A stretch of 64,000 nt of DNA from Burkholderiaceae bacterium. GTDB taxonomy: Bacteria; Pseudomonadota; Gammaproteobacteria; Burkholderiales; Burkholderiaceae_E. The stretch's first letter is position 1. The number at the start of each line of letters is the position of its first letter. Made by a program: the position numbers and the translations under genes. Location of the stretch: positions 62,001 to 126,000 of the forward strand of contig JAMLIR010000004.1 in assembly GCA_023954045.1 (NCBI GenBank), in the 5' to 3' direction. Positions 17,911 through 38,224 of the stretch are shown here, one piece after another. The notes under the pieces were generated by a model. That model was not told the origin of the DNA. It did not search any database and was given only the letters and a program-made list of their open reading frames with translations.

Positions 17911-17936
17911 GGCGGTTCCTTCGTCGTCGGTGGCGT

Positions 17937-19397: not shown

Positions 19398-19452
19398 GCG
19401 GGGCTCCTCGTTGCCGATCGCCGCGGCCTCGCCCCGCCGGCCCGGCGCCCGC

Positions 19453-19776
19453 TCAGCGTTCCAGGTACTGCAGCTTCTCCTGCACGTCCTTCCAGTGCTC
19501 GGCGTCGGGCAGCGGGTCCTTGGTGCGGGTGATGCTGGGCCAGGCCTTCGACAGATCGGCGTTCAGCGCGACGAACGACTGCTGGTCGGCCGGCACGTCC
19601 TCCTCGGCCTTGATCGCCTCGACGGGACACTCGGGGATGCAGACCGCGCAGTCGATGCACTCGTCCGGGTCGATGACCAGCATGTTCGGCCCCTCGCGGA
19701 AGCAGTCGACCGGACAGACGTCGACGCAGTCGGTGTAGCGGCAGCGGATGCAGGACTCGAGGACGACGTGGGTCAT
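19453..19776 (-). CDS. fdxA: 7Fe ferredoxin ([3Fe-4S][4Fe-4S])
   Basis: A 107-residue ferredoxin of the FdxA type. The N-terminal cysteines C9, C17 and C21 ([13 protein letters not shown], with C12 and C25 extra) and the second set C40, C43, C46, C50 ([12 protein letters not shown]) fit one [3Fe-4S] and one [4Fe-4S] cluster. The C-terminal extension after about residue 60 is typical of this family. It is the first gene of the minus-strand redox unit and leaves the same control region as the nicotinate operon. It is therefore the obvious candidate donor for the ferredoxin-dependent Hnr reductase encoded across the divide. Confidence 0.92.
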
Positions 19777-19904: not shown

Positions 19905-20825
19905 GTGGTCACCAGCCAGCACCAGGCACCCGTTTCCGACGGCCGCGCGCCGCGCTACGAGCGCGCCGCCGACCTCGACTCGGCGCTGCGCCGGCTCGCC
20001 GAAGGCGGCTGGACGCCGCTCGCCGGCGGGACCGACTTCTATCCGGCACGCGTCGGCCGGCCGGTGCGCGAGTCGCTGCTCGACCTCTCCAGGCTCGACG
20101 GGCTGCGCGGCGTCCGCGCGGCGGCGCAAGGCGACGCGGGCGCCTGGCGCATCGGCGCGCTGACGACCTGGTCGGATCTCGCTCGCGCGCCGCTGGACGG
20201 CGCGCTGGCGGCGCTGCAGCAGGCGGCGCGCGAGGTGGGCGGCGTCCAGGTCCAGAACCAGGCGACGATCGGCGGAAACCTGTGCAACGCGTCGCCGGCG
20301 GCCGACGGCGTGCCGGCGCTGCTGGCGCTCGATGCGCGGGTCGAGCTCGCCAGCGTGCGCGGCAGGCGCGTGCTGGCGCTCGACGAGTTCGTGCTTGGCA
20401 ACCGGCGCACCGCGATCGCGCCCGACGAGCTGCTCACCGCGGTCATCGTTCCGCGCAGGTCGCCCCGCGCGCTGTCGCGCTTCGTCAAGCTCGGTCATCG
20501 GCGCTACCTGGTGATCTCGATCGCGATGGCGGCGGTGGGTGTGGACTTCGACGACGACGATCGCGTGTCGCACTGCGCGGTGGCGGTCGGAGCCTGTTCG
20601 GCCGCCGCGCTGCGCCTGCCGGCCGTCGAAGCGGCGATGCAGGGCACTCCGCGCGCGCGGCTGGCCGGGCGCTTCGACGCGCTGCCGGTCGACGACGCGT
20701 TCGCGCCGCTCGCGCCGATCGACGACGTGCGCGGCACGGCCGCTTACCGCCGCGAGGCGGCCGTCGAACTGCTGCGCCGGATCTTCGCCGAACTGGCGGC
20801 CACCGGTCCCGGAGGCGCGCGGTGA
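19905..20825 (+). CDS. Molybdenum hydroxylase FAD subunit (probable nicotinate dehydrogenase)
   Basis: A 306-residue FAD-binding subunit of the xanthine dehydrogenase family (CoxM/NdhF type). Flavin motifs are LAGGTDFYPA near residues 36-45 and QNQATIGGNLCNASPAADG near residues 115-133. The C-terminal CO-dehydrogenase flavoprotein domain follows. The GTG at 19905 is the first plausible start; its ribosome site is weak. The next gene overlaps by 4 nt and encodes the Fe-S and molybdenum parts. In the proposed pathway the complex hydroxylates nicotinate at C6 using water and passes electrons through FAD to NAD(P)+ or ferredoxin. The substrate assignment comes from the hnr and ena neighbours, not from this sequence. 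Confidence 0.85.
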   Translation: MVTSQHQAPVSDGRAPRYERAADLDSALRRLAEGGWTPLAGGTDFYPARVGRPVRESLLDLSRLDGLRGVRAAAQGDAGAWRIGALTTWSDLARAPLDGALAALQQAAREVGGVQVQNQATIGGNLCNASPAADGVPALLALDARVELASVRGRRVLALDEFVLGNRRTAIAPDELLTAVIVPRRSPRALSRFVKLGHRRYLVISIAMAAVGVDFDDDDRVSHCAVAVGACSAAALRLPAVEAAMQGTPRARLAGRFDALPVDDAFAPLAPIDDVRGTAAYRREAAVELLRRIFAELAATGPGGAR

Positions 20826-23722
20826 ACCGGCGCGAAACCGCGGTCGCCGTGCCGGAGCACGCGCAGGCGATCCGCTTCGAGGTCAACGGACGGTCGGTCG
20901 CGGTGCGCGCATCGCCGGCGACGCGGCTCTCCGACTGCCTGCGCGACGAGCTCGGCCTGACCGGGACGAAGATCGGCTGCCACGCCGGCGACTGTGGCGC
21001 CTGCACCGTGCTGCTCGACGGCCAGCAGGCGTGCGCCTGCCTGGTCGCCGTCGGCCAGTGCGAGGGCCGCGCCGTCACGACGGTCGAAGCGCTGGGCGCC
21101 GCGGCGCCCGGATCGCAGGCCGCAGTGCTGCGCCAGGCGTTCGTCGACCACGGCGCCGCGCAGTGCGGCATCTGCACGCCCGGCATGCTGATGGCGGGGC
21201 TCGACGTGCTGCGCCGTCACCCGCAGCCGACCGAGCAGCAGGTGCTCGACGGGCTCGGCGGCGTGCTGTGCCGCTGCACCGGTTACCGGAAGATCGTCGA
21301 GGCGGTGGTGGCGGCGGGCGCCGCGGGCCGCGGCGGCGCTGCCCCGGCCGCCCGGGTGGCCGCACCGCTCGAATCGATCGACGCCGGCTGCGCCGTCGGC
21401 GCCCGGTTGCCGCGGCTCGACGCGGCGGACAAGGTCGACGGCCGGCTCGCCTACGGCGCCGACCGCGCGCCGGCCGACGCCTGCTGGCTGAAGGTGGTGC
21501 GCTCGCCGCATCCGTCGGCGAATTTCGAGTACGGCGACCTCGACGCCTTCGTCGCCGCGCACCCCGGCCTGCTCGGCGTCGTCGTCGCCGCCGACATCCC
21601 GAACAACCGCTTCGCGATCTTCCCCGACCTGCGCGACCAGCCCGCGATCGCCGAGGGCAGGGTGCGCATGCGCGGCGAGGCGGTGCTGGTGCTCGCGGGC
21701 GAGCGCGAGGCCGTCGAGGCGATCGACGCCGGATCGGTGCCGATCCGCTGGCAGCCGCTGCCGGCGCTCGAGCAGCCCGAGGCGGCACTGGCGGCGGGCG
21801 CGCCGGCGCTGCACGAGCGCTGGCCCGACAACGTGCTGTGCCGCGGCCGCGTGGCGCGCGGCGACGTCGACGCGGCGGTCGCCGCGGCGCCGCTCGCGGT
21901 CAGTGCGACGATGCGCACCGCCTACGTCGAGCACGCCTACATCGAGCCCGAGGCCGGCTACGCGCAGTGGACGACCGAGGACGGCGTCGAGCGCGTCACC
22001 GTGTTCGCCTGTACGCAGACGCCGTACATGGATCGCGACGAGCTCGCCTGGATGTTCGGCCTGAAGCCGAAGCAGGTGCGCATCGTGCCCTCCGGCGTCG
22101 GCGGCGGCTTCGGCGGCAAGCTCGACATCTCGATCCAGCCGCTGCTGGCGGCTGCTTCGCGCAAGTTCGGCCGGCCGGCGCGCATCGTCTACACGCGGCC
22201 CGAGTCGATGGCCTCGACCACCAAGCGGCATCCGGCCCGGATGAGCGCGACGCTGGCGGCCGACCGTGACGGCAGGCTGCTCGCCTACGACTTCGAGGGC
22301 GACTTCAACACCGGCGCCTATTCGTCGTGGGGACCCACGGTCGCGAACCGGGTGCCGATCCACGCGAGCGGGCCGTACCGCGTTGCCGCGGTGCGGGCGC
22401 TGACGCGCGCGGTCTACACGAACAACGCGATCGCCGGCGCGTTCCGCGGCTTCGGCGTGCCGCAGGCGACGCTTCTGACCGAGACGCTGGTCGACATGCT
22501 GGCCGAACGGCTCGGCGCCGATCCGCTCGAATTGCGCCTCGAGCAGGCGCTGCGCGCGGGCGACACGACCCCGACCGGGCAGCGGCTCGCCGCCAGCGTG
22601 GGCATGCGCGCGTGCCTCGACGCGTTGCGGCCGCCGTGGCGCGAAGCGCGCGTGCGCGCCGAGGCGTTCAACGCGGACCGTGCCGCTGCCGGGGAGGGCG
22701 CGGACCCGGGGGCGCTCGCGGACGCCGGCTCCAGCGACCCGCATCGCCGTTACGCTTCGCACAAGCGCCGCGGTGTCGGGATCGCCTGCATGTGGTACGG
22801 AATCGGCAACACCGTGATCGCCAATCCGTCGTCGATGCAGGTCGGCCTGCGCCGCGACGGCCGCTTCATGCTCTACAACGGCGCGGTCGACATCGGCCAG
22901 GGCACCTACACGGTCATGGCGCAGATCTGCGCCGACGCGCTGGGCGTCCCGGTGGCGCTGATCGACCAGACCGTCGCCGACACCGACCTGACGCTCGACG
23001 CGGGCAAGAGCTCGGCGTCGCGGCAGACCTTCGTGTCGGGCAATGCGGCGAGGGCTGCCGGGGCGGACCTGCGCGCGCGCCTGCTGGAAATGCTCGGCCT
23101 TCCGGCGCACGCCCGGCTCGCGCTCGACGGCACGGTGCTCGGCGGCGAGGTCGACGGACGCGCCGCCTCGCTCGACCTCGGCACGCTGCCCGCCGACGAG
23201 CGCGGCGACGTCGCGCTCGGCAGCGGCCACTTCGATCCGCCGACGGTGCCGCTCGACGCGGACGGCCAGGGCGTGCCGTACGCGACCTACGGCTTCGCGG
23301 CGCAGTTCGCCGAGGTCGAGGTCGACGTCGCGCTCGGCACCGTGCGGGTGCTGGCGATCCACGCTGCGCACGACGTCGGCCGGGCGGTGAATCCGACCCA
23401 GGTCGAGGGCCAGATCCACGGCGGCATCGCCCAGGGGCTCGGCCTCGCGCTGATGGAGGAATACCACTCGGGCCGCACCGACAACCTGCACGACTACCTG
23501 ATTCCGACCGCGGGCGACGTCCCGCCGATCGTGGTGCATCTGGTCGAGGACGCCGAGCCGCTCGGCCCCTACGGCGCCAAGGGCGTCGGCGAGCCGGCGC
23601 TGGTCGCGACCGCGCCGGCGATCCTGAACGCGATCCACCACGCGACCGGCGTGCGCATGGACCAGGTTCCGGTGACGCCGGACCGGCTGCGCGCCGCGCT
23701 GCGCCCCGGAGATTCCCGATGA
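20822..23722 (+). CDS. Molybdenum hydroxylase, fused [2Fe-2S] and molybdopterin subunit (probable nicotinate dehydrogenase)
   Basis: A 966-residue fusion of the small and large subunits of a xanthine dehydrogenase-type enzyme. Residues ~15-170 hold two [2Fe-2S] domains: a plant-type one (GCHAGDCGACTVLL) and a helical one (CGICTPGM with CRCTGYRKIVEA). From about residue 195 the molybdopterin part begins, with GVGGGFGGKLD, GAFRGFGVPQ, and the active-site Glu in AKGVGEPALVATAPAI near the end. No cytochrome c domain is present, unlike NicB of aerobic pseudomonads, so the FAD subunit is the probable electron exit. GTG at 20822 and the hnr ATG both use 4-nt overlaps, making a tightly coupled unit. 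Confidence 0.88.
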   Translation: MNRRETAVAVPEHAQAIRFEVNGRSVAVRASPATRLSDCLRDELGLTGTKIGCHAGDCGACTVLLDGQQACACLVAVGQCEGRAVTTVEALGAAAPGSQAAVLRQAFVDHGAAQCGICTPGMLMAGLDVLRRHPQPTEQQVLDGLGGVLCRCTGYRKIVEAVVAAGAAGRGGAAPAARVAAPLESIDAGCAVGARLPRLDAADKVDGRLAYGADRAPADACWLKVVRSPHPSANFEYGDLDAFVAAHPGLLGVVVAADIPNNRFAIFPDLRDQPAIAEGRVRMRGEAVLVLAGEREAVEAIDAGSVPIRWQPLPALEQPEAALAAGAPALHERWPDNVLCRGRVARGDVDAAVAAAPLAVSATMRTAYVEHAYIEPEAGYAQWTTEDGVERVTVFACTQTPYMDRDELAWMFGLKPKQVRIVPSGVGGGFGGKLDISIQPLLAAASRKFGRPARIVYTRPESMASTTKRHPARMSATLAADRDGRLLAYDFEGDFNTGAYSSWGPTVANRVPIHASGPYRVAAVRALTRAVYTNNAIAGAFRGFGVPQATLLTETLVDMLAERLGADPLELRLEQALRAGDTTPTGQRLAASVGMRACLDALRPPWREARVRAEAFNADRAAAGEGADPGALADAGSSDPHRRYASHKRRGVGIACMWYGIGNTVIANPSSMQVGLRRDGRFMLYNGAVDIGQGTYTVMAQICADALGVPVALIDQTVADTDLTLDAGKSSASRQTFVSGNAARAAGADLRARLLEMLGLPAHARLALDGTVLGGEVDGRAASLDLGTLPADERGDVALGSGHFDPPTVPLDADGQGVPYATYGFAAQFAEVEVDVALGTVRVLAIHAAHDVGRAVNPTQVEGQIHGGIAQGLGLALMEEYHSGRTDNLHDYLIPTAGDVPPIVVHLVEDAEPLGPYGAKGVGEPALVATAPAILNAIHHATGVRMDQVPVTPDRLRAALRPGDSR

Positions 23723-25272
23723 CCCAGCCCATCGGCTCGAACGCGATCGGCGAGCAGTTCGACGCGCCGCAGGAGCCGTCGGCGCCCGCCGCCGAGGTCG
23801 TCGCCGCGCGCGCGCCCGAGAAGATGGCGGCGAACAAGATCCAGTGCGATGCCTGTCCGGTGCTGTGCCAGATCAGCGAGGGCCGGCTCGGCGCCTGCGA
23901 TCGCTGGGGCAACGTCGGCGGCGTGCTCACCCGCACCGATCCGGTGGTGCTGCTCAGGCGCCCCGGCGCCGAGGTGGTCCCGAGCACGGTCGAAGCCTGG
24001 GACGGCGCGCTGCTGAACAACGCGCCGGTGTTCGTGTCGGGCGTCGCGAGCGGCACCACCTATCCCGACTACAAGCCCGCGCCGTTCATCGTCGGCAGCC
24101 GTCACGAGGGCGTCGACATGGTCACCGTCGTGACCGAAGGCATCTTCAGCTACTGCAGCTTCAAGGTGAAGATCGACACCGACCGCTACCTCGGCCCCGA
24201 GCAGGCGACGGTGCGGCACCGCGGCGAGGCGGTGGGCCACGTGACGACGATCGAGTACGGCTCGCAGTTCCTGTCGCTGGGGGGCGTGCACCACCTGACC
24301 GGCGGCTCGAAGAAGGAAGGCCGCGTCACCTGCGAGCTGATGATGGCGCTGGGCAACTGCCAGTCCGTCGACCTCGAGATCGAAGGCGGTGCGCAGCTGA
24401 CGGTGCAGGCCGGGCGCGCGCCGCGCATCAACGGCGTCGAGGAGCAGCGCATGCGCGTCGGTTGCGGCTCGGCGACGATCGGCATCTTCGCGCGCCAGTG
24501 GTTCGGCCACGTCGACGAGGTGGTGGTGGTCGACGACCACATCACCGGCGTGCTGAGCGAACACCAGGCCGGGCGCTGCCTCGACATGCCGCCCTCGGGC
24601 ATCCGCATCCGCGGGCGCAAGTCGACGCCGGGCCGCTACTTCCAGGTCGCCAGCCCCGGCACCGGCTGGGGCGGCACCGACATCGAGGACCCGCTGTCGA
24701 TCGTCGAGGGCTGGGACCCGAAGGTGGCGCACCCGGGCCTGCGCCTGCTGATGGTCTCGACCACCGGCGAGCACGCCGAGTGGTTCGAGCTCGACGAGGC
24801 CCTGCGGCCGCAGCGCGCGCCGATGCCGGCCGCGGTGCGCAAGGTGGTCGAGCGCATCGGCGAGAACTGCGAGCCCGCGCTCGCGACCGTGCTCTTCGTC
24901 GGCGGGGCGGGAGGCAGCCTGCGCGCCGGCGTCACCGAGAACCCGGTGCTGCTCACGCGCTCGATCAAGGACCTGCTCACCAACGTCACCTGCGGCGGCG
25001 CGCCGGCCTACGTCTGGCCCGGCGGCGGCATCACGGTGATGGTCGACGTCACGCGGATGCCGGCGAACTCGTTCGGCAGCGTGCCGACGCCGGCGATCGT
25101 CGCGCCGATCGAGTTCACGATGCGCCGCGAGGTCTACGCGGCGCTCGGCGGTCACGTCGACCGGGTGCGGCCCGTCGAGGACGTCGTCGCCACCGAGCGG
25201 CACCGGATCGTCGACGCGCTTCCGATCAATCCGTGGCCGCTGGCCGGCGCGCCAACGAGAGGGTCGCGATGA
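23719..25272 (+). CDS. hnr: 6-Hydroxynicotinate reductase
   Basis: A 517-residue protein I recognise as the Hnr family, first defined in Eubacterium barkeri nicotinate fermentation. There the enzyme reduces 6-hydroxynicotinate to 1,4,5,6-tetrahydro-6-oxonicotinate with ferredoxin and carries covalent flavin and Fe-S clusters. Here a cysteine set C43, C46, C50, C60 (CDACPVLC) follows a Pro/Ala-rich lead. Conserved blocks such as GIFSYCSFKVKIDTDRYLG, LTGGSKKEGRVTCELMMALG, GCGSATIGIF (residues 248-257) and WPGGGITVMVDV follow. The ATG at 23719 overlaps the molybdenum subunit stop; the frame is open upstream only inside that gene. The adjacent hydroxylase, enamidase and ApbE-like gene strengthen the call. 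Confidence 0.82.
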   Translation: MTQPIGSNAIGEQFDAPQEPSAPAAEVVAARAPEKMAANKIQCDACPVLCQISEGRLGACDRWGNVGGVLTRTDPVVLLRRPGAEVVPSTVEAWDGALLNNAPVFVSGVASGTTYPDYKPAPFIVGSRHEGVDMVTVVTEGIFSYCSFKVKIDTDRYLGPEQATVRHRGEAVGHVTTIEYGSQFLSLGGVHHLTGGSKKEGRVTCELMMALGNCQSVDLEIEGGAQLTVQAGRAPRINGVEEQRMRVGCGSATIGIFARQWFGHVDEVVVVDDHITGVLSEHQAGRCLDMPPSGIRIRGRKSTPGRYFQVASPGTGWGGTDIEDPLSIVEGWDPKVAHPGLRLLMVSTTGEHAEWFELDEALRPQRAPMPAAVRKVVERIGENCEPALATVLFVGGAGGSLRAGVTENPVLLTRSIKDLLTNVTCGGAPAYVWPGGGITVMVDVTRMPANSFGSVPTPAIVAPIEFTMRREVYAALGGHVDRVRPVEDVVATERHRIVDALPINPWPLAGAPTRGSR

Positions 25273-26135
25273 ACGCCGGCGCGGCCTGGGCCCGCTTCGG
25301 CGACGGGCGCTGGCACTTCCAGCACGGGCCGATCGACCTGGTCATAGGCGTCGACGGCGACGCGGCCGCGGTCGGGCTTGCGCTCGCGTCGGCCTGGGCG
25401 CGCTTCGCGGGGGTGCTCGACGAGCTGGTCGGCGAACTCGCGCTGTTGCGCGCACCGTGCGCGCCGGCGGCGCGCGGCGACGCGCCGCGCGGCCCGATCG
25501 CGCGCCGGATGGCCGAGGCCTGCCGACCGTACGCCGAGCGCTTCGGCCTGTTCGTCACGCCGATGGCGGCGGTGGCGGGCAGCGTCGCGCAGGAGATCGT
25601 CGCGCACTTCGCCCGTCCGGGCATTCGCCGCGCCTGGGTCAACAACGGCGGCGACATCGCGCTGTGGCTCGCCGACGGCGCGTCGGTCGACGTCGGCATG
25701 GTCACCGACCTCGCCGCGCCGTCGATCGACGGCCGACTGCGCATCGCCGACACCGACGCGCCGCGCGGCATCGCGACCTCGGGCTGGCGCGGCCGCAGCT
25801 TCTCGCTCGGCGTGGCCGACGCGGTCACGGTGCTCGCCGACACCGCCGCGATGGCCGACGCCGCGGCGACGATGATCGCCAACGCGGTCGACATCGATCA
25901 CCCGGCAGTGCAGCGCGCGCCGGCATCCTCGCTGCGGGACGACAGCGACCTGGGCGAGCGGCTGGTCACGGTCTCGGTCGGCGCGCTGCCGGCCGACGCC
26001 GTCGCGGACGCGCTCGGGCGCGGCGAGCGCTTCGCGCGACGCTGCATCGACCTCGGGCTGGTCTCGCAGGCGATGTTGTCGCTGCAGGGGCGTTCGCGTA
26101 TCGTCGCCGATCACCGCATCGAGGCGCTGGCATGA
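25269..26135 (+). CDS. UPF0280 / ApbE-like protein, possible flavin transferase for Hnr
   Basis: A 288-residue UPF0280 family protein related to ApbE FAD:protein FMN transferases. The ApbE-like blocks are AWVNNGGDIALWL near residues 124-136 and, later, GIATSGWRGRSFSLGVADAV followed by AAMADAAATMIANAVD, where ApbE carries its metal and FAD residues. It is wedged by 4-nt overlaps between hnr and the AA_synth gene. The E. barkeri Hnr contains covalent flavin, so a dedicated flavinylation role is a reasoned inference. A canonical ApbE acceptor motif is not obvious in this Hnr. Confidence 0.8.
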   Translation: MNAGAAWARFGDGRWHFQHGPIDLVIGVDGDAAAVGLALASAWARFAGVLDELVGELALLRAPCAPAARGDAPRGPIARRMAEACRPYAERFGLFVTPMAAVAGSVAQEIVAHFARPGIRRAWVNNGGDIALWLADGASVDVGMVTDLAAPSIDGRLRIADTDAPRGIATSGWRGRSFSLGVADAVTVLADTAAMADAAATMIANAVDIDHPAVQRAPASSLRDDSDLGERLVTVSVGALPADAVADALGRGERFARRCIDLGLVSQAMLSLQGRSRIVADHRIEALA

Positions 26136-26722
26136 TCGAGATCCGTCGAGTCTGGACGCAGGTCGAGGACGTCTTCCACGAGTTCGGGCCGCGCGGCGCG
26201 CGTCCGCAGCGACGCGGCGTGCTCGCGGTGGTGCTGGCCAATCCCTACTCGGGCCGCTACGAGCCGGACATCGTGCCGATGATGGAGGCGTTGAAGCCGG
26301 TCGGGGTCGAACTCGCGCAGCGGCTGCTCGCCGCAATGAAGCTCGAGCCGGCGGCGATCCAGTCGTACGGCAAGGGCGGCATCGTCGGCGTCGACGGCGA
26401 GTCCGAGCACGGTCACCTGTGGCACGTGCCCGGCGGCTACGCGATGCGCGAACTGCTCGAGGGCCGCGGCGTCAGCACGAAGGCGATCGTGCCGTCGAAC
26501 ACCAAGGTGGGCGGACCCGGCACGCACATCGACATCCCGATGACCCACGTCAACGCCAGCTACGTGCGCAGCCACTTCGACACGATCGAGGTCGGCGTGC
26601 CCGGCGCGCCCGCGGGCGACGAGATCGTGTTCTTCCTCGCGATGAGCACGGGCGCACGCATTCACGAACGGGTCGGCGGCCTGCGCGCCGACCAGATCAA
26701 GGGCGAGGACGGGCTGCGCTGA
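26132..26722 (+). CDS. AA_synth (PF06684, DUF1185) family protein, first copy
   Basis: A 196-residue protein of the AA_synth/DUF1185 family, whose known structures show a chorismate-mutase-like fold and have no proven reaction. Family blocks are VVLANPYSGRYEPDIVPMM, KGGIVGVDGESEHGHLWH, NTKVGGPGTHIDIPMTH and YVRSHFDTIEVGVP. The ATG at 26132 overlaps the UPF0280 stop by 4 nt. The next gene is a paralogue with the same blocks. The fixed place between hnr and the transporter suggests a step or chaperone role in nicotinate breakdown, but the function is not known. Confidence 0.82.
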   Translation: MIEIRRVWTQVEDVFHEFGPRGARPQRRGVLAVVLANPYSGRYEPDIVPMMEALKPVGVELAQRLLAAMKLEPAAIQSYGKGGIVGVDGESEHGHLWHVPGGYAMRELLEGRGVSTKAIVPSNTKVGGPGTHIDIPMTHVNASYVRSHFDTIEVGVPGAPAGDEIVFFLAMSTGARIHERVGGLRADQIKGEDGLR

Positions 26723-26756
26723 GCGCGGGGCCGTCCGCAACCGACAGGAGCAGCCG

Positions 26757-27341
26757 ATGCCGGCCGACATCCGCAAGCTGATCGTCACCGTCGACGAGAC
26801 GCGCATCGAAATGGGCCGCAAGGTCGAGCCGCCGACGCGGCGCGCGCTGGCGATCGCCGTGATCGCCAACCCGTACGCGGGCCGATACGTCGAGCAGCTC
26901 GACGAGCTGGTCGCGATCGGCGAGGAGCTCGGCGGGCTGCTGGGCGCGCGCTGCGTCGAGGCGCTCGGGATCGCGCCGGGCCAGGCCGAGAGCTACGGCA
27001 AGGCCGCGATCGTCGGCGAGAAGGGCGAGCTCGAGCACGCGGCGGCGATCCTTCACCCGAAGCTCGGCGCCCCGCTGCGCAAGGCGGTCGAGAAGGGGGC
27101 GGCACTGGTGCCGTCGGCGAAGAAGATGGGCGGGCCGGGCACCGCGATCGACGTGCCGCTCGGCCACAAGGACGCGGCCTACGTGCGCAGCCATTTCGAC
27201 GCGATCGAGGCGCGCGTGCCCGATGCGCCGCGCGCCGGCGAGATCGTCGTCGCCGTCGCGGTCACGGACAGCGGCCGGCCGCTGGCGCGCATCGGCGGGC
27301 TGCAGAAGCACGAGATCCAGGGCAAGGACGGTTTGCGCTGA
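26757..27341 (+). CDS. AA_synth (PF06684, DUF1185) family protein, second copy
   Basis: A 194-residue paralogue of the preceding gene with the same order of blocks: AVIANPYAGRYVEQLDELV, GKAAIVGEKGELEHAAAIL, KKMGGPGTAIDVPLGHKDA and YVRSHFDAIEARVPDAP. The His-containing segment differs (ELEHAAAI versus ESEHGHLWH), so the two are diverged paralogues rather than a recent duplication. A GACAGGAG ribosome site precedes the ATG at 26757; the gap to the first copy is 34 nt. They may form a heteromer. Confidence 0.82.
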   Translation: MPADIRKLIVTVDETRIEMGRKVEPPTRRALAIAVIANPYAGRYVEQLDELVAIGEELGGLLGARCVEALGIAPGQAESYGKAAIVGEKGELEHAAAILHPKLGAPLRKAVEKGAALVPSAKKMGGPGTAIDVPLGHKDAAYVRSHFDAIEARVPDAPRAGEIVVAVAVTDSGRPLARIGGLQKHEIQGKDGLR

Positions 27342-27417
27342 GCGCGCGGCCGCAGCGCCGGGCCGCGGGCCTTTCCGCGGACGGATTCGTTGTGACGACT
27401 ACAGGACGGAGACCAGC

Positions 27418-28611
27418 ATGAGGAAGAGACTGCTTGCCACCCTGTTCGCGGCGTGCGCGTTCGGCGCCGGCGCTCAGGCCCAGACGCCGATCCGCATCGG
27501 CGAGCTGAACAGCTACAAGGCGCAACCGGCGTTCCTGGACCCGTACAAGAAGGGCTGGGAGCTGGCGGTCGAGGAGATCAATGCGTCCGGCGGGCTGCTC
27601 GGCCGCAAGGTCGAGGTCGTCTCGCGAGACGACAACGGCAATCCCGGCGACGCGGTGCGGGTAGCCGAGGAGCTGGTGTCGCGCGAGAAGGTCGACCTGA
27701 TCTTCGGCACCTTCCTGTCGCACATCGGCCTGGCCGTCACCGACTTCGCCAGGCAGCGCAAGGTGTTCTTCCTCGCCGCCGAGCCGCTGACCGACAAGAT
27801 CACCTGGCAGAACGGCAACCGCTACACCTACCGGCTGCGCCCGAGCACCTACATGCAGACCGCGATGCTGGTGCCCGAGGCGGCGAAGCTGAAGAAGAAG
27901 CGCTGGGCGATCGTCTATCCGAACTACGAGTACGGACAGTCGGCCGCGGCGACGTTCAAGCAGTTGCTGAAGGCCGCGCAACCCGACGTCGAGTTCGTCG
28001 CCGAGCAGGCGCCGGCGCTCGGCCGGGTCGACGCGGGCGCGGTGGTGCAGGCGCTCGCCGACGCGAAGCCCGACGCGATCTTCAACGTGCTGTTCGGCGC
28101 CGACCTCGCCAAGTTCGTCCGCGAGGGCAGCACGCGCGGACTGTTCAAGGACCGCGCGGTCGTGAGCCTGCTCTCGGGCGAACCCGAGTACCTCGATCCG
28201 CTGAAGGACGAGGCGCCCGAAGGGTGGATCGTCACCGGCTACCCGTGGTACGGGATCGACACGCCGCAGCACAAGCGCTTCCTCGAGGCCTACCAGAAGC
28301 GCTGGAACGACTATCCGCGGCTCGGCTCGATCGTCGGCTACTCGTCGATGATGTCGGTCGCCGCCGGCATCCGCAGGGCCGGGAGCACCGACACCGAGAA
28401 GCTGATCGCCGCATTCAAGGGCCTGAAGGTCGACACGCCGTTCGGCGCGATGGTCTATCGCCCCGAGGACAACCAGTCGACGATGGGCGCGTACGTCGGC
28501 GTGACCACGGTGCGCGACGGCAAGGGCGTCATGAAGGACTACCGCTACGTCGACGGGGCGTCGGTGCTGCCGAACGCGGAGGAGACCCGCAAGCTGCGCC
28601 CGGCCGACTGA
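27418..28611 (+). CDS. ABC transporter substrate-binding protein, LIV/aromatic-acid type
   Basis: A 397-residue periplasmic binding protein of the LivJ/Leu-Ile-Val superfamily. A classical signal peptide covers residues 1-21 (MRKRLLATLFAACAFGAGAQ, then A before QTPIRIG). The mature part has the family pattern KKGWELAVEEINASGGLLGR and VEVVSRDDNGNPGDAVRVAEEL. The ATG at 27418 is chosen because the signal peptide starts there. It precedes the matching permease and ATPase genes by 17 nt. Such proteins often bind aromatic or carboxylic acids, so nicotinate or a relative is the likely ligand by context. Confidence 0.9.
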   Translation: MRKRLLATLFAACAFGAGAQAQTPIRIGELNSYKAQPAFLDPYKKGWELAVEEINASGGLLGRKVEVVSRDDNGNPGDAVRVAEELVSREKVDLIFGTFLSHIGLAVTDFARQRKVFFLAAEPLTDKITWQNGNRYTYRLRPSTYMQTAMLVPEAAKLKKKRWAIVYPNYEYGQSAAATFKQLLKAAQPDVEFVAEQAPALGRVDAGAVVQALADAKPDAIFNVLFGADLAKFVREGSTRGLFKDRAVVSLLSGEPEYLDPLKDEAPEGWIVTGYPWYGIDTPQHKRFLEAYQKRWNDYPRLGSIVGYSSMMSVAAGIRRAGSTDTEKLIAAFKGLKVDTPFGAMVYRPEDNQSTMGAYVGVTTVRDGKGVMKDYRYVDGASVLPNAEETRKLRPAD

Positions 28612-28628
28612 GAAGCGGTCGTCGCTGA

Positions 28629-30545
28629 ATGGTCTCGGGCTTCGCGGTCCAGCTGCTCAACGGGCTGGCCGGCGCGTCGACGCTGTTCCTGATCGCCGTC
28701 GGCCTGTCGCTGATCTTCGGGGTCACGCGAATCGTCAATTTCGCGCACGGCTCGATGTTCATGATCGGGCTGTACGTCGCGTACTCGTCGACGCAGTGGC
28801 TGATGCCGGCGCTGGGCGGCGGCGCGCTCGGGTTCTGGCTGTCGATCCTGCTTGCCGCGCTCGCGGTGGGCGGGCTCGGGGCGCTGGTCGAGCTGCTGAT
28901 CCTGCGCCGCATCTACGGCGCGCCCGAGCTGTTCCAGCTGCTCGCCACCTTCGCGGTGGTCCTGATGCTGCGCGACGCGGCGCTGGCGATCTGGGGGCCC
29001 GACGACCTGCTCGGGCCGAAGGCGCCCGGGATGAAGGGCGCGATCGACGTGCTGGGTCGCCAGTTCCCGCAGTACGACCTGTTCCTGATCTTCGTCGGGC
29101 CGGCGGTGCTCGCGCTGCTCTGGCTGCTGTTGCGGCGCACGCGGCTCGGCGTGCTGATCCGTGCCGCCACGCAGGACCGCGAGATGGTGGGCGCGCTCGG
29201 CGTCAACCAGGCGTGGCTGTTCACCGGCGTGTTCGCGCTCGGCTCGGCGCTGGCCGCGCTGGGCGGCGCGCTGCAACTGCCGCGCGAGCCCGCCAACCTC
29301 GCGCTCGACATGACGACGATCGGCGACGCGTTCGTGGTGGTCGTCGTCGGCGGGATGGGCAGCATTCCGGGCGCCTACCTCGCCGCGCTGGTCATTGCCG
29401 AGATCAAGGCGATCTGCTACGGCATCGGCACCGTCGAGGTGCTCGGGTCGAGCTTCTCGTTCTCGAAGCTGACGCTGGTGGTCGAGTTCCTGGTGATGGC
29501 CGCGGTGCTGATCTGGCGCCCGTGGGGGCTGCTCGGCAAGCCGCAGGGCGCGGTACGCAGCGCCGCCGCCGCCGAGGCGCCGATCCGGCCGATGTCGCGG
29601 GCGGGCGTCGCGGCGGTGGGCGCGCTCGCGGTCGCGCTGCTTGCGCTGCCGCTGCTCGGCGACTCGTTGCCGTACCTGACCGTGCTGATGATCGACGTCC
29701 TGATCGCCGTGCTGTTCGCGACCAGCCTGCACTTCATCATGGGTCCCGGCGGGATGCACTCGTTCGGGCACGCGGCGTACTTTGGCCTGGGCGCGTACGG
29801 CGCGGCGGCGCTGCTCAAAGGGCTGGCGCTGCCGATGGAGCTCGCACTGGCGCTCGCGCCGCTCGCCGCGCTCGCCGGCGGGCTGCTGTTCGGATGGTTC
29901 GCGGTGCGACTCTCGGGCGTCTATCTCGCGATGCTGACGCTGGCCTTCGCGCAGATCGTCTGGTCGATCGTCTTCCAGTGGGACGACGTGACCGGGGGCA
30001 GCAACGGGATGGTGGGCATCTGGCCGTCGGAGCGCTTCGCGTCGAAGACCGCGTACTACTACCTGACGCTGGCGCTGGTCGGCGCGAGCGTGTATGCGCT
30101 GCGCCGGATGCTGTTCGCGCCGTTCGGCTATGCGATGCGCGCCGGGCGCGACTCGCCGCTGCGCGCCGAGAGCACCGGCATCGGCGTGATCGGCGTGCAC
30201 TGGGCGGGCTTCGCTGCGGCGGCGCTGTTCTGCGGGCTGGCCGGCGCGCTCTACGCGTTCGGCAAGGGCTCGATCTCGCCCGAGACGATCCACGTCGGGC
30301 GCTCGATCGACGGGCTGGTCATGGTGCTGCTCGGCGGCGTGCAGACGCTGGCGGGCCCGATCGTCGGCAGCGCGGTGTTCACCTGGCTGCAGGATTCGGT
30401 CAGTCGCGCGACCGATTACTGGCGCGCGCTGCTCGGGCTGGCGATCCTCGGGCTGGTGCTCGCGTTCCCGCAGGGCATCGTCGGCGGTCTCGCCGCCGCG
30501 TGGGAGCGCTGGCGCTGGCGCGTCGCGCCGGGAGCACGCCGGTGA
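28629..30545 (+). CDS. Fused LivH-LivM ABC transporter permease
   Basis: A 638-residue inner-membrane protein joining both permeases of a LIV-type importer. The LivH half spans residues ~1-305 (GLSLIFGVTRIVNFAHGSM, and GGMGSIPGAYLAALVIAE in the coupling region). After a linker rich in Ala the LivM half follows (MGPGGMHSFGHAAYFGLGAY, AVRLSGVYLAMLTLAFAQ, GGVQTLAGPIVGSAVF). Each half has about 8-10 hydrophobic segments. Usually these are two genes; here one polypeptide would build the whole channel. The next ATPase gene overlaps by 4 nt. Confidence 0.9.
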   Translation: MVSGFAVQLLNGLAGASTLFLIAVGLSLIFGVTRIVNFAHGSMFMIGLYVAYSSTQWLMPALGGGALGFWLSILLAALAVGGLGALVELLILRRIYGAPELFQLLATFAVVLMLRDAALAIWGPDDLLGPKAPGMKGAIDVLGRQFPQYDLFLIFVGPAVLALLWLLLRRTRLGVLIRAATQDREMVGALGVNQAWLFTGVFALGSALAALGGALQLPREPANLALDMTTIGDAFVVVVVGGMGSIPGAYLAALVIAEIKAICYGIGTVEVLGSSFSFSKLTLVVEFLVMAAVLIWRPWGLLGKPQGAVRSAAAAEAPIRPMSRAGVAAVGALAVALLALPLLGDSLPYLTVLMIDVLIAVLFATSLHFIMGPGGMHSFGHAAYFGLGAYGAAALLKGLALPMELALALAPLAALAGGLLFGWFAVRLSGVYLAMLTLAFAQIVWSIVFQWDDVTGGSNGMVGIWPSERFASKTAYYYLTLALVGASVYALRRMLFAPFGYAMRAGRDSPLRAESTGIGVIGVHWAGFAAAALFCGLAGALYAFGKGSISPETIHVGRSIDGLVMVLLGGVQTLAGPIVGSAVFTWLQDSVSRATDYWRALLGLAILGLVLAFPQGIVGGLAAAWERWRWRVAPGARR

Positions 30546-31321
30546 GCGCGCTGCTGCAGGTGCGGGGGCTGCGCAAGGCGTTCGGCGGCGTGCAGGCGGT
30601 CGAGGGCGTGAGCTTCGATCTCGCCGCCGGAGAGCTGCTGGCGATGATCGGACCGAACGGCGCCGGCAAGTCGACCTGCTTCAACATGATCAACGGCCAG
30701 CTCGCGCCCGATGCCGGCAGCGTCGTGCTGGCCGGCCGCGAGATCGCCGGGCGACCGCCGCGCGAGATCTGGCGGCTCGGGGTCGGGCGCACGTTCCAGG
30801 TGGCGGCCACCTACGCGTCGATGACGGTGGCCGAGAACGTGCAGATGGCGCTGCTGTCGCACCACGGGAAGCTGTTCCGGCTCTGGCCGCGCGCGGCGTC
30901 GCTGCATCGCGACGAGGCGCTCGAGCTGCTGGCCGCGGTGGGCCTGCGCGACCGGGCCGACGAACCGTGCAGCACGCTCGCCTACGGCGACATCAAGACG
31001 GTCGAGCTGGCGATCGCGCTGGCGAACCAGCCGTCGCTGCTGCTGATGGACGAGCCGACCGCGGGCATGGCGCCGCAGGAGCGCAACGCGCTGATGCAGC
31101 TCACCCGCAGGCTCGTCAAGGAGCGCGGCATCGGCGTGCTGTTCACCGAGCACAGCATGGACGTGGTGTTCGCGCACGCCGACCGGATCATGGTGCTGGC
31201 GCGCGGGCACCTGATCGCGCAGGGCGCGCCCGAGGCGATCCGCGACGACGCGCAGGTGCGCGAGGTCTACTTCGGCAGCGGACGGCTGGTGAAGGCGGCG
31301 CGCGCCGGGGACGCGCGATGA
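30542..31321 (+). CDS. LIV-type ABC transporter ATP-binding protein (LivG-like)
   Basis: A 259-residue ATPase. Walker A is GPNGAGKST near residues 38-46, the signature region reads STLAYGDIKTVELAIAL in place of a textbook LSGGQ, as is usual for LivG proteins, and Walker B is LLLMDEPTAGMAP. The C-terminal LivG-like tail ends VREVYFGSGRLV. The GTG start at 30542 overlaps the permease stop. With the LivF-like partner it powers uptake through the fused permease. Confidence 0.92.
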   Translation: MSALLQVRGLRKAFGGVQAVEGVSFDLAAGELLAMIGPNGAGKSTCFNMINGQLAPDAGSVVLAGREIAGRPPREIWRLGVGRTFQVAATYASMTVAENVQMALLSHHGKLFRLWPRAASLHRDEALELLAAVGLRDRADEPCSTLAYGDIKTVELAIALANQPSLLLMDEPTAGMAPQERNALMQLTRRLVKERGIGVLFTEHSMDVVFAHADRIMVLARGHLIAQGAPEAIRDDAQVREVYFGSGRLVKAARAGDAR

Positions 31322-32061
31322 GCGGGAGCGCCACCGGCGGGAACACCGTCAGTGCGCCGCTGCTCGCGGTGCGCGGGCTCGACGCGTGGTACGGGCGCGC
31401 GCAGGTGCTGTTCGGCGTCGACCTGGAGGTCGGCGACGGCGAGGTCGTCGCGCTGATGGGCCGCAACGGCGCCGGCAAGAGCACGACGATGAAGGCGATC
31501 ATGGGACTGCTCGCCTCGCGCGCGGGCGAGATCGTCTTCGCCGGCGAGCGCATCGACGGGCTGGAGCCGTTCCGGATCAGCCGCGCCGGCCTCGGCTACG
31601 TTCCGGAAGACCGACGCATCTTCACCGACCTGACCGTGCTCGAGAACCTCGAGGTCGGCAGGCGCCCGCCGCGCGCCGGCGCGCCGGCCTGGACGGTCGA
31701 GCGGCTGTTCGCGCTGTTCCCGAACCTCGGGCGCATGCCCGAGCGCCCCGGGGGCAGGATGAGCGGGGGCGAGCAGCAGATGCTCAGCGTCGCGCGCACG
31801 CTGATGGGCAATCCGCGCCTGGTGCTGCTCGACGAGCCGTCGGAGGGCGTCGCGCCGGTGATCGTCGAGCAGATGGCCGACATGATCGTCGAACTGAAGC
31901 AGCAGGGGCTGTCGGTGCTGCTGTCGGAGCAGAACGTCGCGTTCGCCTCGGCGGTGAGCGACCGGGCCTACGTGCTCGAGAAGGGGCAGGTGAAGTTCGC
32001 CGGAACGATGGCCGGGCTCGACGCCGACGAGGCGGTGCGCCGCCAGTATCTCGCCGTATGA
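31318..32061 (+). CDS. LIV-type ABC transporter ATP-binding protein (LivF-like)
   Basis: A 247-residue ATPase. Walker A is GRNGAGKSTT, the signature is MSGGEQQMLSVAR and Walker B is LVLLDEPSEGVAP, followed by SEQNVAFA with the family-typical EQN segment. The first ~14 residues (MSGSATGGNTVSAP) are an unstructured lead; a later start is possible, but the ATG overlap with the LivG stop supports this one. It is last in the transporter set, 60 nt before ena. Confidence 0.92.
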   Translation: MSGSATGGNTVSAPLLAVRGLDAWYGRAQVLFGVDLEVGDGEVVALMGRNGAGKSTTMKAIMGLLASRAGEIVFAGERIDGLEPFRISRAGLGYVPEDRRIFTDLTVLENLEVGRRPPRAGAPAWTVERLFALFPNLGRMPERPGGRMSGGEQQMLSVARTLMGNPRLVLLDEPSEGVAPVIVEQMADMIVELKQQGLSVLLSEQNVAFASAVSDRAYVLEKGQVKFAGTMAGLDADEAVRRQYLAV

Positions 32062-32121
32062 GGCGGCGCGCCGCCGCCGGTGGCGCGCCGCGGTTCGAAC
32101 GCAGGCACAGGAGGAAACGCC

Positions 32122-33324
32122 ATGGCGATTGCCGCAAGCGCTGAGAAATCCGGAAAGGTCGTGATCCGCAACGTCGGACTGATGCTCTCCGGGGACATCG
32201 ACCGTCCGATCCTCGACGCGGATACCGTCGTCGTCGAGGACGGGCTGATCGCGGCGATCGGCCGGGAGAAGGACTGCGACGCCGGCGCCGCCGCGCGCGT
32301 CGTCGATGCGAAGGGCACCGCGCTCGCGCCCGGCCTGATCGACTCGCACGTGCATCCGGTCTTCGGCGACTGGACCCCGCGGCAGAACCAGCTCGGCTGG
32401 ATCGAGTCGTGCATGCACGGCGGCGTCACGACGATGGTGTCGGCCGGCGAGGTGCACCTGCCGGGCCGGCCGAAGGACGTGGTCGGCGTCAAGGCGCTCG
32501 CGATCACCGCGCAACGCGCGTTCGACGGGATGCGCGCGGCAGGCGTGGGCGGGGGCGTCAAGGTGCTCGCCGGCGCGCCGGTGCTCGAGAAGGGGATGGT
32601 CGAATCCGACTTCGCCGAGATGGCCGCGGCCGGCGTCAGGCTGCTCGGCGAGATCGGGCTGGGGTCGGTCAAGGCCGGCGACGAGGCGGCGCGGATGGTC
32701 GCCTGGGCGCGCCGCCACGGCATCCAGAGCACGATCCACACCGGCGGGCCGTCGATCCCGGGCTCGGGCCTGATCGACGAGCAGGTGGTCCTCGAGGCCG
32801 ACGCCGACGTGATCGGGCACATCAACGGCGGCCACACCTCGCTGTCGTACAAGGCCGTGTGCACGCTGTGCGAGAAGAGCTCGCGGGCGATGGAGATCGT
32901 GCACAACGGCAACGAGCGCATCGCGATCCTCACCGCGCGGCACGCGATCGAGCTGAAGTGCCCGCACCGGGTGATCCTCGGCACCGACGCGCCGGCGGGC
33001 TCGGGGGTGCAGCCGCTGGGCATCCTGCGGCTGGTCGCGCTGATCTCGAGCATGGCCGACATCCCGGCCGAGATCTGCTTCGGCTTCGCCACGGGCAACA
33101 CCGCGCGGATGCGCGGGCTGCGCCAGGGGCTGCTCGAGGTCGGGCGCCCGGCCGACTTCGTGTTCATGGACCGCGCGCAGCACTCGGCGGGGCGCGACCT
33201 GCTCGAGAGCGTTCGGCTCGGCGACATCCCCGGCGTCGGCATGGTGATGATCGACGGGATCGTCCGCTGCCAGCGCAGCCGCAACACCCCGCCGGCGGTC
33301 GAGGTGCCGGCGATCGTCGCGTGA
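32122..33324 (+). CDS. ena: Enamidase (1,4,5,6-tetrahydro-6-oxonicotinate hydrolase)
   Basis: A 400-residue amidohydrolase that I match closely, from memory, to Eubacterium barkeri Ena, which opens the tetrahydro-oxonicotinate ring to give ammonia and 2-formylglutarate with an Fe-Zn centre. Metal-site residues are in place: H76 and H78 (DSHVHP), E177 (GEIGLGSVK), H206 (IHTGGPSIPGSG), H233 (GHINGGHTS) and D289 (GTDAPAGSGVQPLGILR). The C-terminal SRNTPPA is also shared. The ATG at 32122 has a GGAGGAAAC ribosome site and is preferred over an in-frame start at 32080. Together with hnr it defines the reductive nicotinate route. Confidence 0.88.
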   Translation: MAIAASAEKSGKVVIRNVGLMLSGDIDRPILDADTVVVEDGLIAAIGREKDCDAGAAARVVDAKGTALAPGLIDSHVHPVFGDWTPRQNQLGWIESCMHGGVTTMVSAGEVHLPGRPKDVVGVKALAITAQRAFDGMRAAGVGGGVKVLAGAPVLEKGMVESDFAEMAAAGVRLLGEIGLGSVKAGDEAARMVAWARRHGIQSTIHTGGPSIPGSGLIDEQVVLEADADVIGHINGGHTSLSYKAVCTLCEKSSRAMEIVHNGNERIAILTARHAIELKCPHRVILGTDAPAGSGVQPLGILRLVALISSMADIPAEICFGFATGNTARMRGLRQGLLEVGRPADFVFMDRAQHSAGRDLLESVRLGDIPGVGMVMIDGIVRCQRSRNTPPAVEVPAIVA

Positions 33325-34028
33325 GCCGCGAGCGCGCGATGCCGGGGGCGAGCGGGCGCACGCGGACCGCGTCGGCCGTGCCGGAGGCGCCGCCGCGGCG
33401 TCGCCGCGACGCCGAGGCGACGCGCGCGCGAATCCTGAAGGCGGCAGCGGTCGAGTTCGCCCAGCACGGCTTCGCCGGCGGGCGCGGCGACCGGATCGCG
33501 CAACGCGCGCGCTCGAGCGAGCGCATGGTCTACTACTACTTCGGCAGCAAGGACGGGCTGTTCCGCGCGGTGCTCGAGGGCGCGTACGCGTCGCTGCGCG
33601 ACGCCGAGCGGGCGGTGCAGCTCGATCCCGACGACCCGGTCCGGGCGCTCGAGCAGTTCTGCCGCTTCGTCTGGCGCTACTACGCCGACCATCCCGGCTT
33701 CATCAGCGTGCTGAACACCGAGAACCTGCACCGTGCGCGCCACCTGCGAAAGTCCGGGCGCCTCGACGAGCTCGTCGGGCCGGTCGTCGGGCTGCTGTCC
33801 CAGCTGCTGGCCGACGGCCAGGCACGCGGCGTGTTCCGCCGCGACGTCGACCCGGCGGACCTGTACGTGGCGATCGCCGGGCTCGGCTACTTCCGGCTGT
33901 CGAACCGGCACACGCTGTCGGCGGTGCTCGGTCGCGACATGGCGGAGCCGGAAGGCCTCGAGCGCTACTGGGTCGAGGCCGCGCGCATGGTGAGCGGCTA
34001 CGTGCGCGGCGATCGCGATCGCTTATGA
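33321..34028 (+). CDS. TetR/AcrR-family regulator, probable nicotinate-operon regulator
   Basis: A 235-residue regulator (229 if the ATG at 33339 is used). The GTG at 33321 overlaps the ena stop by 4 nt, the habit of this operon. After a basic Pro/Arg-rich lead, the TetR DNA-binding domain is clear ([18 protein letters not shown], then [20 protein letters not shown]). The C-terminal domain includes [12 protein letters not shown]. By position it should control the nicotinate genes, probably through the palindrome at 19846-19865, with nicotinate or 6-hydroxynicotinate as effector. That is inference. Confidence 0.87.
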
Positions 34029-34089
34029 TGGATGCCCCCGCGCGCCGACCCGGCACGCGGCGCTCACCCGTCGCTTCCCCGGCACGCCG

Positions 34090-35265
34090 ATGATCATCAC
34101 CTCGCTGCTCGACACCGATCTCTACAAGTTCACGATGATGCAGGTCGTGCTGCATCACTTCCCGGGCGCGCAGGTCGAGTACCGGTTCAAGTGCCGCAAC
34201 GAGGGAATCGACCTGCGTCCGTACGTCGGCGCGATCCAGGAGGAGATCCAGAACCTCTGCTCGCTGCGCTTCAGGCAGCGCGAACTCGACTACCTGCGCA
34301 GCTTCCGGTTCATCAAGAGCGACTTCGTCGATTTCCTCGGCCTGTTCCAGATGAACTCGAAGTACATCACGGTGGCGCCTTCGCCGAAGGACAACGGCGA
34401 GATCGACATCGTGATCCGCGGGCCGTGGCTGCACACGATCCTGTTCGAGATCCCGGTGCTCGCGATCGTCAACGAGATCTACTTCCGCGAGACGGTAGGC
34501 GTTCCCGACTACGCCGAGGGGCGCCGGCGCCTCGACGAGAAGATCGCGCTGATCTCCGGCCATCCCGATCTCGAGGGGATCCGCATCGCCGACTACGGAA
34601 CGCGGCGGCGCTTCTCGCGGCTGTGGCACGAGGAAGTCCTGCAGATCTGCAAGGCGAAGCTCGGGCCGATCTTCGCCGGCACCTCCAACGTGATGTACGC
34701 GATGCACCACGGCGTCACGCCGCTGGGCACGATGGCGCACGAGTACCTGCAGGCCTGCCAGGCGCTCGGCCCGCGCCTTCGCGACACGCAGGTGTTCGGC
34801 TTCGAGATGTGGGCGCGCGAGTACCGCGGAGACCTGGGCATCGCGCTGTCCGACGTCTACGGCATGAGCGCGTTCCTGCGCGACTTCGACATGTACTTCT
34901 GCAAGCTGTTCGACGGCGCGCGGCACGATTCGGGGGATCCCTACGAGTGGGGCGAGCGGCTGATCGCGCACTACGAGGCGAACCGCGTCGACCCGAAGAC
35001 CAAGACGCTGGTGTTCTCCGACGCGCTGACCTTCCCGCTGATGGTCGAGCTGTACAAGCGGTTTCGCGATCGCACGCGGATCGCGTTCGGGATCGGCACC
35101 AACCTGACCAACGACCTCGGCTACGTGCCGCTGCAGATCGTGATCAAGATGGTGCGCTGCAATGGCCAGCCGGTGGCCAAGCTCTCGGACACGCCGGCGA
35201 AGAACATGTGCGACGACGAGGCGTACCTGAAATACCTGCGCCAGGTCTTCGACATCAAGGGCTGA
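34090..35265 (+). CDS. pncB: Nicotinate phosphoribosyltransferase
   Basis: A 391-residue NAD-salvage enzyme making nicotinate mononucleotide from nicotinate and PRPP. The start [19 protein letters not shown] and the block [11 protein letters not shown] are diagnostic. The conserved His lies in [20 protein letters not shown], a segment typical of bacterial PncB, and [11 protein letters not shown] binds phosphate. It lies 61 nt after the TetR gene at the end of the catabolic operon. Salvage and breakdown therefore compete for the same substrate from adjacent genes. Confidence 0.96.
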
Positions 35266-38149: not shown

Positions 38150-38224
38150 GATTCCTCCTCGGGTTGTCGGCCAAGTATGATAGCAACGCTCCAGCGGCCG
38201 ATCCGCCGCGCGCACGGAGGAAAC

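Follow-up and report, generated by a model that had tools for sequence, protein, structure and literature searches.

A probable nicotinate gene cluster of the reductive type in a Burkholderiaceae bacterium and the tie between its Hnr and UPF0280 genes

The window, a stretch of 64,000 nucleotides from a Burkholderiaceae bacterium (GenBank assembly GCA_023954045.1, contig JAMLIR010000004.1, positions 62,001 to 126,000), belongs to a genome of 4.02 Mb in 50 contigs that is 97% complete and has a single copy of Hnr, 6-hydroxynicotinate reductase. Hnr lies here (23719–25272) within a plus-strand run at 19905–35265 whose reading frames overlap or nearly touch. The run opens with the FAD subunit of a molybdenum hydroxylase (19905–20825; PF00941, E 2.6e-36, and PF03450), of which nicotinate (vitamin B3) is the putative substrate, and a fused [2Fe-2S] and molybdopterin subunit (20822–23722; PF02738, E 1.8e-74, with PF20256, PF01799, PF01315 and PF00111). 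Hnr is followed by a UPF0280/COG2122 protein with the ApbE fold, a proposed Hnr maturation factor (25269–26135; NF003322, 362.1 bits against a cut-off of 290), and, further on, by the enamidase Ena (32122–33324; E 2.2e-111 to 2VUN). A sequence-only reading had placed the hydroxylase, Hnr, Ena, a LIV-type importer, a TetR gene and pncB in one run, and Pfam, NCBIfam and PDB matches together with identity to annotated homologues confirmed each of them in its place; the family matches of the cluster genes are far above chance level. A betaproteobacterial host, as proposed there, would agree with the relatives observed. Overlooked in that reading were three conserved genes inside the run, namely that for UPF0280 and two of family PF06684 (26132–26722 and 26757–27341), as well as a divergent ferredoxin/flavoprotein set at 14338–19776.

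Hnr and UPF0280 proved to be tied almost perfectly. Scanning a public genome collection with an enamidase alignment gave at least 548 confirmed relatives, of which the best 80 loci were retained. A profile search placed Hnr in 63 of the retained loci; of the 38 that span at least 21 kb, 33 have it. UPF0280 stood directly behind Hnr in 57 of the 59 loci where this could be tested (56 by tblastn and, by profile, L042, with a gap of about 0.4 kb), four further loci that end within 220 bp past Hnr lying outside the 59; the two exceptions were L034, with 700 bp of sequence remaining, and L073. The two genes also adjoin each other in all six plasmid loci. In a sample of 300 genomes from the order to which the window belongs, Hnr (E 1e-30) and UPF0280 (E 1e-10) each occurred in 24 and both in 23 (Fisher's p 4e-32, uncorrected for relatedness of the genomes). 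The genome with Hnr alone (G126) has a completeness of 78%, and the contig breaks off within Hnr, on the side where UPF0280 would be expected. Two records count against a strict partnership: in L073 no UPF0280 was found with Hnr, which is cut by the contig end, and G084 keeps UPF0280, PF06684 and the importer while neither the 14 kb around its UPF0280 (L098) nor a genome search revealed a recognisable Hnr. The UPF0280 frame of another genome (G254:C31:236182-236988) holds one in-frame TAG, either a sequencing error or a mark of a decayed gene.

Joint transfer of one gene block, with no direct functional link between the two genes, would be an improbable source of this pattern. The cluster is compact and found on plasmids, hitch-hiking would give co-occurrence too, and related genomes are not independent; however, the 23 genomes include four that keep both genes although these lie apart, on different contigs (G029, G157) or at a distance of about 14 kb (G118) and about 24 kb (G284). 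Moreover, several loci retain Hnr–UPF0280 where Ena, PF06684 or the usual type of hydroxylase has been lost or replaced, and the two genes occur together in Bacillota, Desulfobacterota-type and one archaeal record. We take UPF0280 for a dedicated partner of Hnr; this link is the new part, the nicotinate pathway itself being already known. We regard it as highly probable that this cluster encodes the front end of a reductive route of nicotinate catabolism, with UPF0280 as dedicated Hnr partner. The sequence-only reading had likewise proposed such a front end and is borne out by enzyme assignments that hold and by Hnr and Ena sharing a stretch in the 63 loci counted above.

What UPF0280 does for Hnr is suggested by its fold. 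The window protein has the ApbE fold over nearly its whole chain and keeps an ADxxxT stretch, aligned with that of ApbE, which we take to be metal-binding in the latter. Hnr of Eubacterium barkeri is said to carry a covalently bound flavin. UPF0280 most likely matures Hnr, perhaps by attaching this flavin, a role that we put at about an even chance. Several observations weigh against it. The covalent flavin is reported, at the level of an abstract, for E. barkeri Hnr only. The Pfam ApbE model PF02424 does not match the window UPF0280 at 0.001 (a match in G002, at 5.1e-4, is below the cut-off), ApbE chains match the UPF0280 profile only at E 0.05–0.22, and the ApbE target motif D-x-x-[ST]-G-A-[ST] is found in none of 59 Hnr. 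In the profile alignment, UPF0280 has a gap where the HHxxDPxTG stretch of ApbE sits, the stretch that holds the catalytic His of that family according to PMC12052999. COG2122 homology seemingly does not extend to the flavin-binding region of ApbE, as stated in PMC5764234, where a persulfide role is suggested and COG2122 is reported to be required for homocysteine synthesis in Desulfovibrio.

The relatives of UPF0280 in anaerobes bear on the same question. In a class-level sample of 291 genomes, drawn from the class of Acetobacterium, UPF0280 occurred in 37 and Hnr in two, G310 (A. bakii) and G581, in both of which a high-scoring, Hnr-type UPF0280 (E 5e-96 and 6e-92) adjoins Hnr. In the remaining 35 the sole UPF0280 is of a distant, short type (E 3e-29 to 2e-21) and Hnr is absent, which again speaks against a role confined to Hnr. 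We searched for HcyBio (DUF39, PF01837) in 24 genomes, comprising 13 with the short type, nine UPF0280-free genomes of the same class and two archaeal ones: it lay 0.56–0.84 kb from the short-type UPF0280 in 13 of 13, occurred in none of the nine UPF0280-free genomes and, of the archaeal genomes, was present in G314 and not found in G313. A. bakii (contigs C1 and C76) has both UPF0280 branches, each beside its own client.

A UPF0280 that is no flavin transferase and supports Hnr by Fe–S or persulfide chemistry, by chaperoning or by catalysis of its own is a serious contender, if somewhat short of an even chance: it would suit the missing His-containing stretch, an Hnr without the ApbE target motif, the neighbourhood of the other branch with DUF39/HcyBio and the Desulfovibrio requirement with its suggested persulfide role. 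The near-complete ApbE fold, the kept ADxxxT stretch and the covalent flavin reportedly found in Hnr argue instead for flavin attachment. A broader reading, which we put at somewhat less than an even chance, would make the UPF0280/COG2122 proteins cytosolic enzymes that each modify a dedicated client protein, with an ApbE fold and an altered active and target site, one branch maturing Hnr (presumably by attaching its covalent flavin) and the other DUF39. Comparison of the Hnr and HcyBio/DUF39 profiles gave no significant similarity. Residues 131–146 of Hnr resemble the conserved Cys region of DUF39, in a V-D-x-V-T-x-x-T...[SC]-x-S-G-like stretch that 7 of 100 shuffled profiles equal; this stretch, similar in both clients, could be the target of modification. 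The Hnr–UPF0280 tie offers a handle on the way in which Hnr would acquire a covalent flavin. It also adds a second client to a family with a still unexplained part in homocysteine synthesis.

No Pfam or NCBIfam model matched Hnr itself at E 0.001, and the PDB gave a single unrelated match (E 0.57). Plasmid records with homologues at 61–71% identity number 26, of which 17 bear the annotation '6-hydroxynicotinate reductase', and the protein is 42% identical over 388 amino acids to an Hnr fragment at the edge of L008, an E. barkeri-type cluster of A. bakii, whose full-length Hnr matches the Hnr profile (A6) at 1.4e-221. In the 50 rows of that profile the cysteines of the core Fe–S motif CxxCxxxCx9C (C43, C46, C50, C60) are invariant, as are C249 and C384; the Hnr of L017, not among these rows, is without the core Fe–S stretch. 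The AF2 model of the window protein reaches a pLDDT of 85 and a pTM of 0.81. Of 58 classed Hnr (L017, a 59th, was set aside as its core motif was not found), 33 have an N-terminal 2[4Fe-4S] domain and 25, the window's included, do not. The long form belongs to loci L012–L054, from Bacillota, Desulfobacterota-type, archaeal, Armatimonadota and similar records, and the short form to the window, plasmid loci L002–L007 and loci L055–L086, mostly alpha- and betaproteobacterial with two titled acidobacterial metagenome-assembled genomes (MAGs). Archaeal records with Hnr include an Archaeoglobi MAG (L030) and the Hecatellales MAG of L050 (L157, G314). Hnr, UPF0280, PF06684 and Ena also occur in records of gut-type anaerobes (L013, L015, L016, L017 and L019; Oscillibacter, Dysosmobacter, Anaerotruncus colihominis, Pseudoflavonifractor), where the cluster might remove vitamin B3 from the gut.

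Presumably the short-form Hnr takes its electrons from an outside donor, and possible candidates lie on the minus strand just before the run. These are an FdxA-type ferredoxin (19453–19776; NF045490 FdxA_Protbact, 170.6 bits against a cut-off of 135) and a large, GltD-like FAD/[4Fe-4S] oxidoreductase (14338–17940, start codon uncertain; PF07992, 4.2e-12) with a C-terminus resembling the PyrK/dihydroorotate-dehydrogenase electron-transfer type. For the latter, PF14691 (4e-5) and NF005128 (715 bits against 1072) remained below their cut-offs. Homologues of FdxA are found in six cluster stretches (L079, L100, L102, L109, L110, L116) and those of the large oxidoreductase beside the cluster in three (L100, L102, L109), while Fpr-type reductases occur in 15. 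Between the two candidate genes lies one for an NADH:flavin oxidoreductase (Oxidored_FMN; 17937–19397, minus strand; PF00724, E 4.4e-37), of which no homologue was seen in the related stretches mapped.

The enamidase matches E. barkeri enamidase 2VUN over its full length (residues 11–395) with 48% identity, the next PDB match being at 1.4e-6, and H76, H78, E177, H206, H233 and D289, which we take to be the metal ligands, are kept in 81 of 81 aligned sequences. Eight Hnr loci (L003, L004, L006, L007, L100, L101, L114, L117) instead carry HyuA (hydantoinase/oxoprolinase) at more than 300 bits, with no Ena within the stretch covered, to which the search was limited; in L112 and L119 HyuA is cut by the stretch end and Ena is likewise absent from the stretch. 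A lactam hydrolase that depends on ATP may therefore take the place of Ena at these loci. Ena and PF06684 also form pairs where the genome has no Hnr (L129 and L136 in G012 and G212; L010, L056 and L080 in G311, G315 and G318), and two Ena loci (L050, L077) have Hnr elsewhere in the genome.

The hydroxylase carries, by Pfam, FAD, two [2Fe-2S] and molybdenum domains and belongs to the xanthine dehydrogenase (XDH) family. PDB matches of its molybdenum subunit include E. barkeri nicotinate dehydrogenase 3HRD (chain A 1.2e-71, B 3e-61, D 1.3e-33), but the best is aldehyde oxidoreductase 1SIJ (E 1.2e-109), a point against nicotinate; because aldehyde oxidoreductases outscore 3HRD, nicotinate is a putative substrate here. 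Indirect support for it comes from the company the cluster keeps. A NicAB-type hydroxylase replaces the XDH type in eight Hnr loci (L002, L004, L074, L079, L102, L106, L113, L116), the label resting on the nicA/nicB annotation of L004 and 50–72% similarity to the L002 gene, with none of the NCBIfam models confirming it. Two of these loci, L102 (G102) and L116 (G179), are from the window's own genus and have PncB beside the cluster as well. NicAB had been regarded, in the sequence-only reading, as an alternative used in place of the Hnr route; since NicAB-type hydroxylases also occur with Hnr, that opposition falls. Lastly, both growth and resting-cell tests showed that strain SG-6C, which has such a cluster, degrades nicotinate as well as 6-hydroxynicotinate (PMC3511419). 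It seems unlikely, in view of these swaps, the adjacent PncB, the SG-6C data and an Ena close to 2VUN with its ligand positions kept, that the cluster degrades another N-heterocyclic acid, a pyridine or pyridone carboxylate, with Hnr and Ena as substrate-shifted relatives, even though this would agree with the ranking of the hydroxylase below 1SIJ, with the Ena–PF06684 pairs in genomes without Hnr and with the coincidence of HyuA and missing Ena.

On a nicotinate pathway, the LIV-type importer would probably bring nicotinate in and the XDH-type hydroxylase, its family assigned by domains and its substrate putative, would convert it to 6-hydroxynicotinate. Hnr, drawing on an outside donor (perhaps FdxA or the FAD/Fe–S protein, or Fpr-type reductases in relatives) and matured by UPF0280, perhaps through attachment of the covalent flavin, would reduce this to 1,4,5,6-tetrahydro-6-oxonicotinate, which Ena, as its orthology and ligand set suggest, would hydrolyse to 2-formylglutarate and ammonia. 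Thus, the ring is probably reduced and hydrolysed rather than split with oxygen. Carbon would then probably leave by glutarate and glutaryl-CoA, not by the B12 route of E. barkeri. Glutarate genes elsewhere in the genome had been pointed to as the place to look, and a glutaryl-CoA dehydrogenase is indeed encoded there (G000:C4; 3D6B, E 1.6e-226), though such a gene is common. Of the back-half enzymes of E. barkeri, the search covered two: the B12 mutase (Mgm) is matched in this 97% complete genome only via its B12-binding domain, and Hmd had no match in a genome search made without a positive control. The dehydrogenase fits the glutarate route described for Azorhizobium in PMC3511419.

The two PF06684 (DUF1185) paralogues, a (26132–26722; E 2.9e-64, 216.2 bits) and b (26757–27341; E 6.8e-73, 244.3 bits against a gathering score of 27 in both cases), differ in distribution: among the loci mapped, a occurs only in the alpha/betaproteobacterial type and b in anaerobe-type clusters too. 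In the order-level sample, PF06684 was found in 20 of 24 Hnr genomes and in 18 of 276 others (p 4e-17), and is thus frequent and not obligatory. The host genome has a third PF06684 gene (L108:6653-8587, G000:C4), which adjoins that for glutaryl-CoA dehydrogenase, an arrangement not found in 13 other PF06684 stretches (L125–L137). Speculatively, PF06684 proteins act around or after ring opening. A profile of both paralogue types matches 2QTP at 5e-91. This structure (SPO0826) and that of BB2672 (3BYQ), of the same family as both window paralogues, had led to a suggested role in amino-acid metabolism, partly from branched-chain transporter neighbours (PMC2954203). Because such a transporter sits in the nicotinate cluster, and a branched-chain-type transporter is present in many such clusters, that published reading needs revisiting; a nicotinate-cluster transporter suggests itself as the simpler one.

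The importer follows on the same strand, with a LIV-type periplasmic binding protein (27418–28611; PF13458, E 3.8e-73), a fused LivH–LivM-type permease (28629–30545; 68% identity), and LivG-type (30542–31321; 71%) and LivF-type (31318–32061; 68%) ATPases, the last three being open frames identified by identity to the annotated L002 ABC genes. Behind Ena come a TetR-family regulator (33339–34028, possibly starting at 33321; PF00440 and PF17938) and PncB, the nicotinate phosphoribosyltransferase of NAD salvage (34090–35265; TIGR01514, 461.7 bits against a cut-off of 269.55, and NF003704), all on the plus strand.

The pathway is of a kind already known. The E. barkeri cluster and the window have the molybdenum hydroxylase, Hnr and Ena in common. 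The E. barkeri-type cluster of A. bakii (L008) also holds UPF0280 and one PF06684 gene, together with 3-hydroxyisobutyrate-dehydrogenase-like, molybdenum, B12-binding, PrpF, MutL, PEP-mutase/isocitrate-lyase-like and aconitase-like genes and, below the Pfam cut-off, a serine-dehydratase-like one, a set that we take to be that of E. barkeri. The first three E. barkeri genes were reportedly noted in nine Proteobacteria by Alhapel in 2006. The window differs in its Hnr, which is without the N-terminal 2[4Fe-4S] domain present in the anaerobe type. The search of its genome yielded no Hmd, and of Mgm no more than the B12 domain was matched. Its molybdenum subunit is fused to the Fe–S subunit, whereas that of E. 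barkeri consists of two parts, L and M (PMC5746545). That outside E. barkeri the reductive route was known from physiology had also been claimed; its occurrence there stands, its restriction to physiology does not, since proteobacterial clusters with Hnr are in print for Azorhizobium caulinodans, Bradyrhizobium, Rhodopseudomonas and Bradyrhizobiaceae SG-6C (PMC3511419). Compared with these, the window has other regulator and electron-donor neighbours, and its XDH-type hydroxylase contrasts with the NicAB type beside Hnr in several of the Afipia, Aquabacter and Xanthobacter stretches mapped. The UPF0280 family is similarly tied to a client enzyme in homocysteine synthesis, where COG2122 goes with DUF39 and NIL/ferredoxin (PMC5764234), whereas the window protein, of the longer subfamily NF003322, has Hnr as its client; from the ApbE/Ftp/FmnB FAD:protein FMN transferases (PMC12052999) it is set apart by the lack of HHxxDPxTG and of a target motif in Hnr. 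Read as a nicotinate cluster, it extends the known route to another genome. Given Hnr in 24 of the 300 order-level genomes and in the anaerobes named above, this route is no rarity, although only 2 of the 291 genomes from the class of Acetobacterium have Hnr.

Elsewhere in the window, ARAGORN called a tRNA-Phe inside pncB (34235–34308, minus strand), which is probably false because Rfam at its gathering score finds nothing in the window. Downstream of the run lie genes for a putative Na+/H+ antiporter (36577–37827; PF07399) and a WS/DGAT acyltransferase (38177–39685; PF03007), both ordinary.

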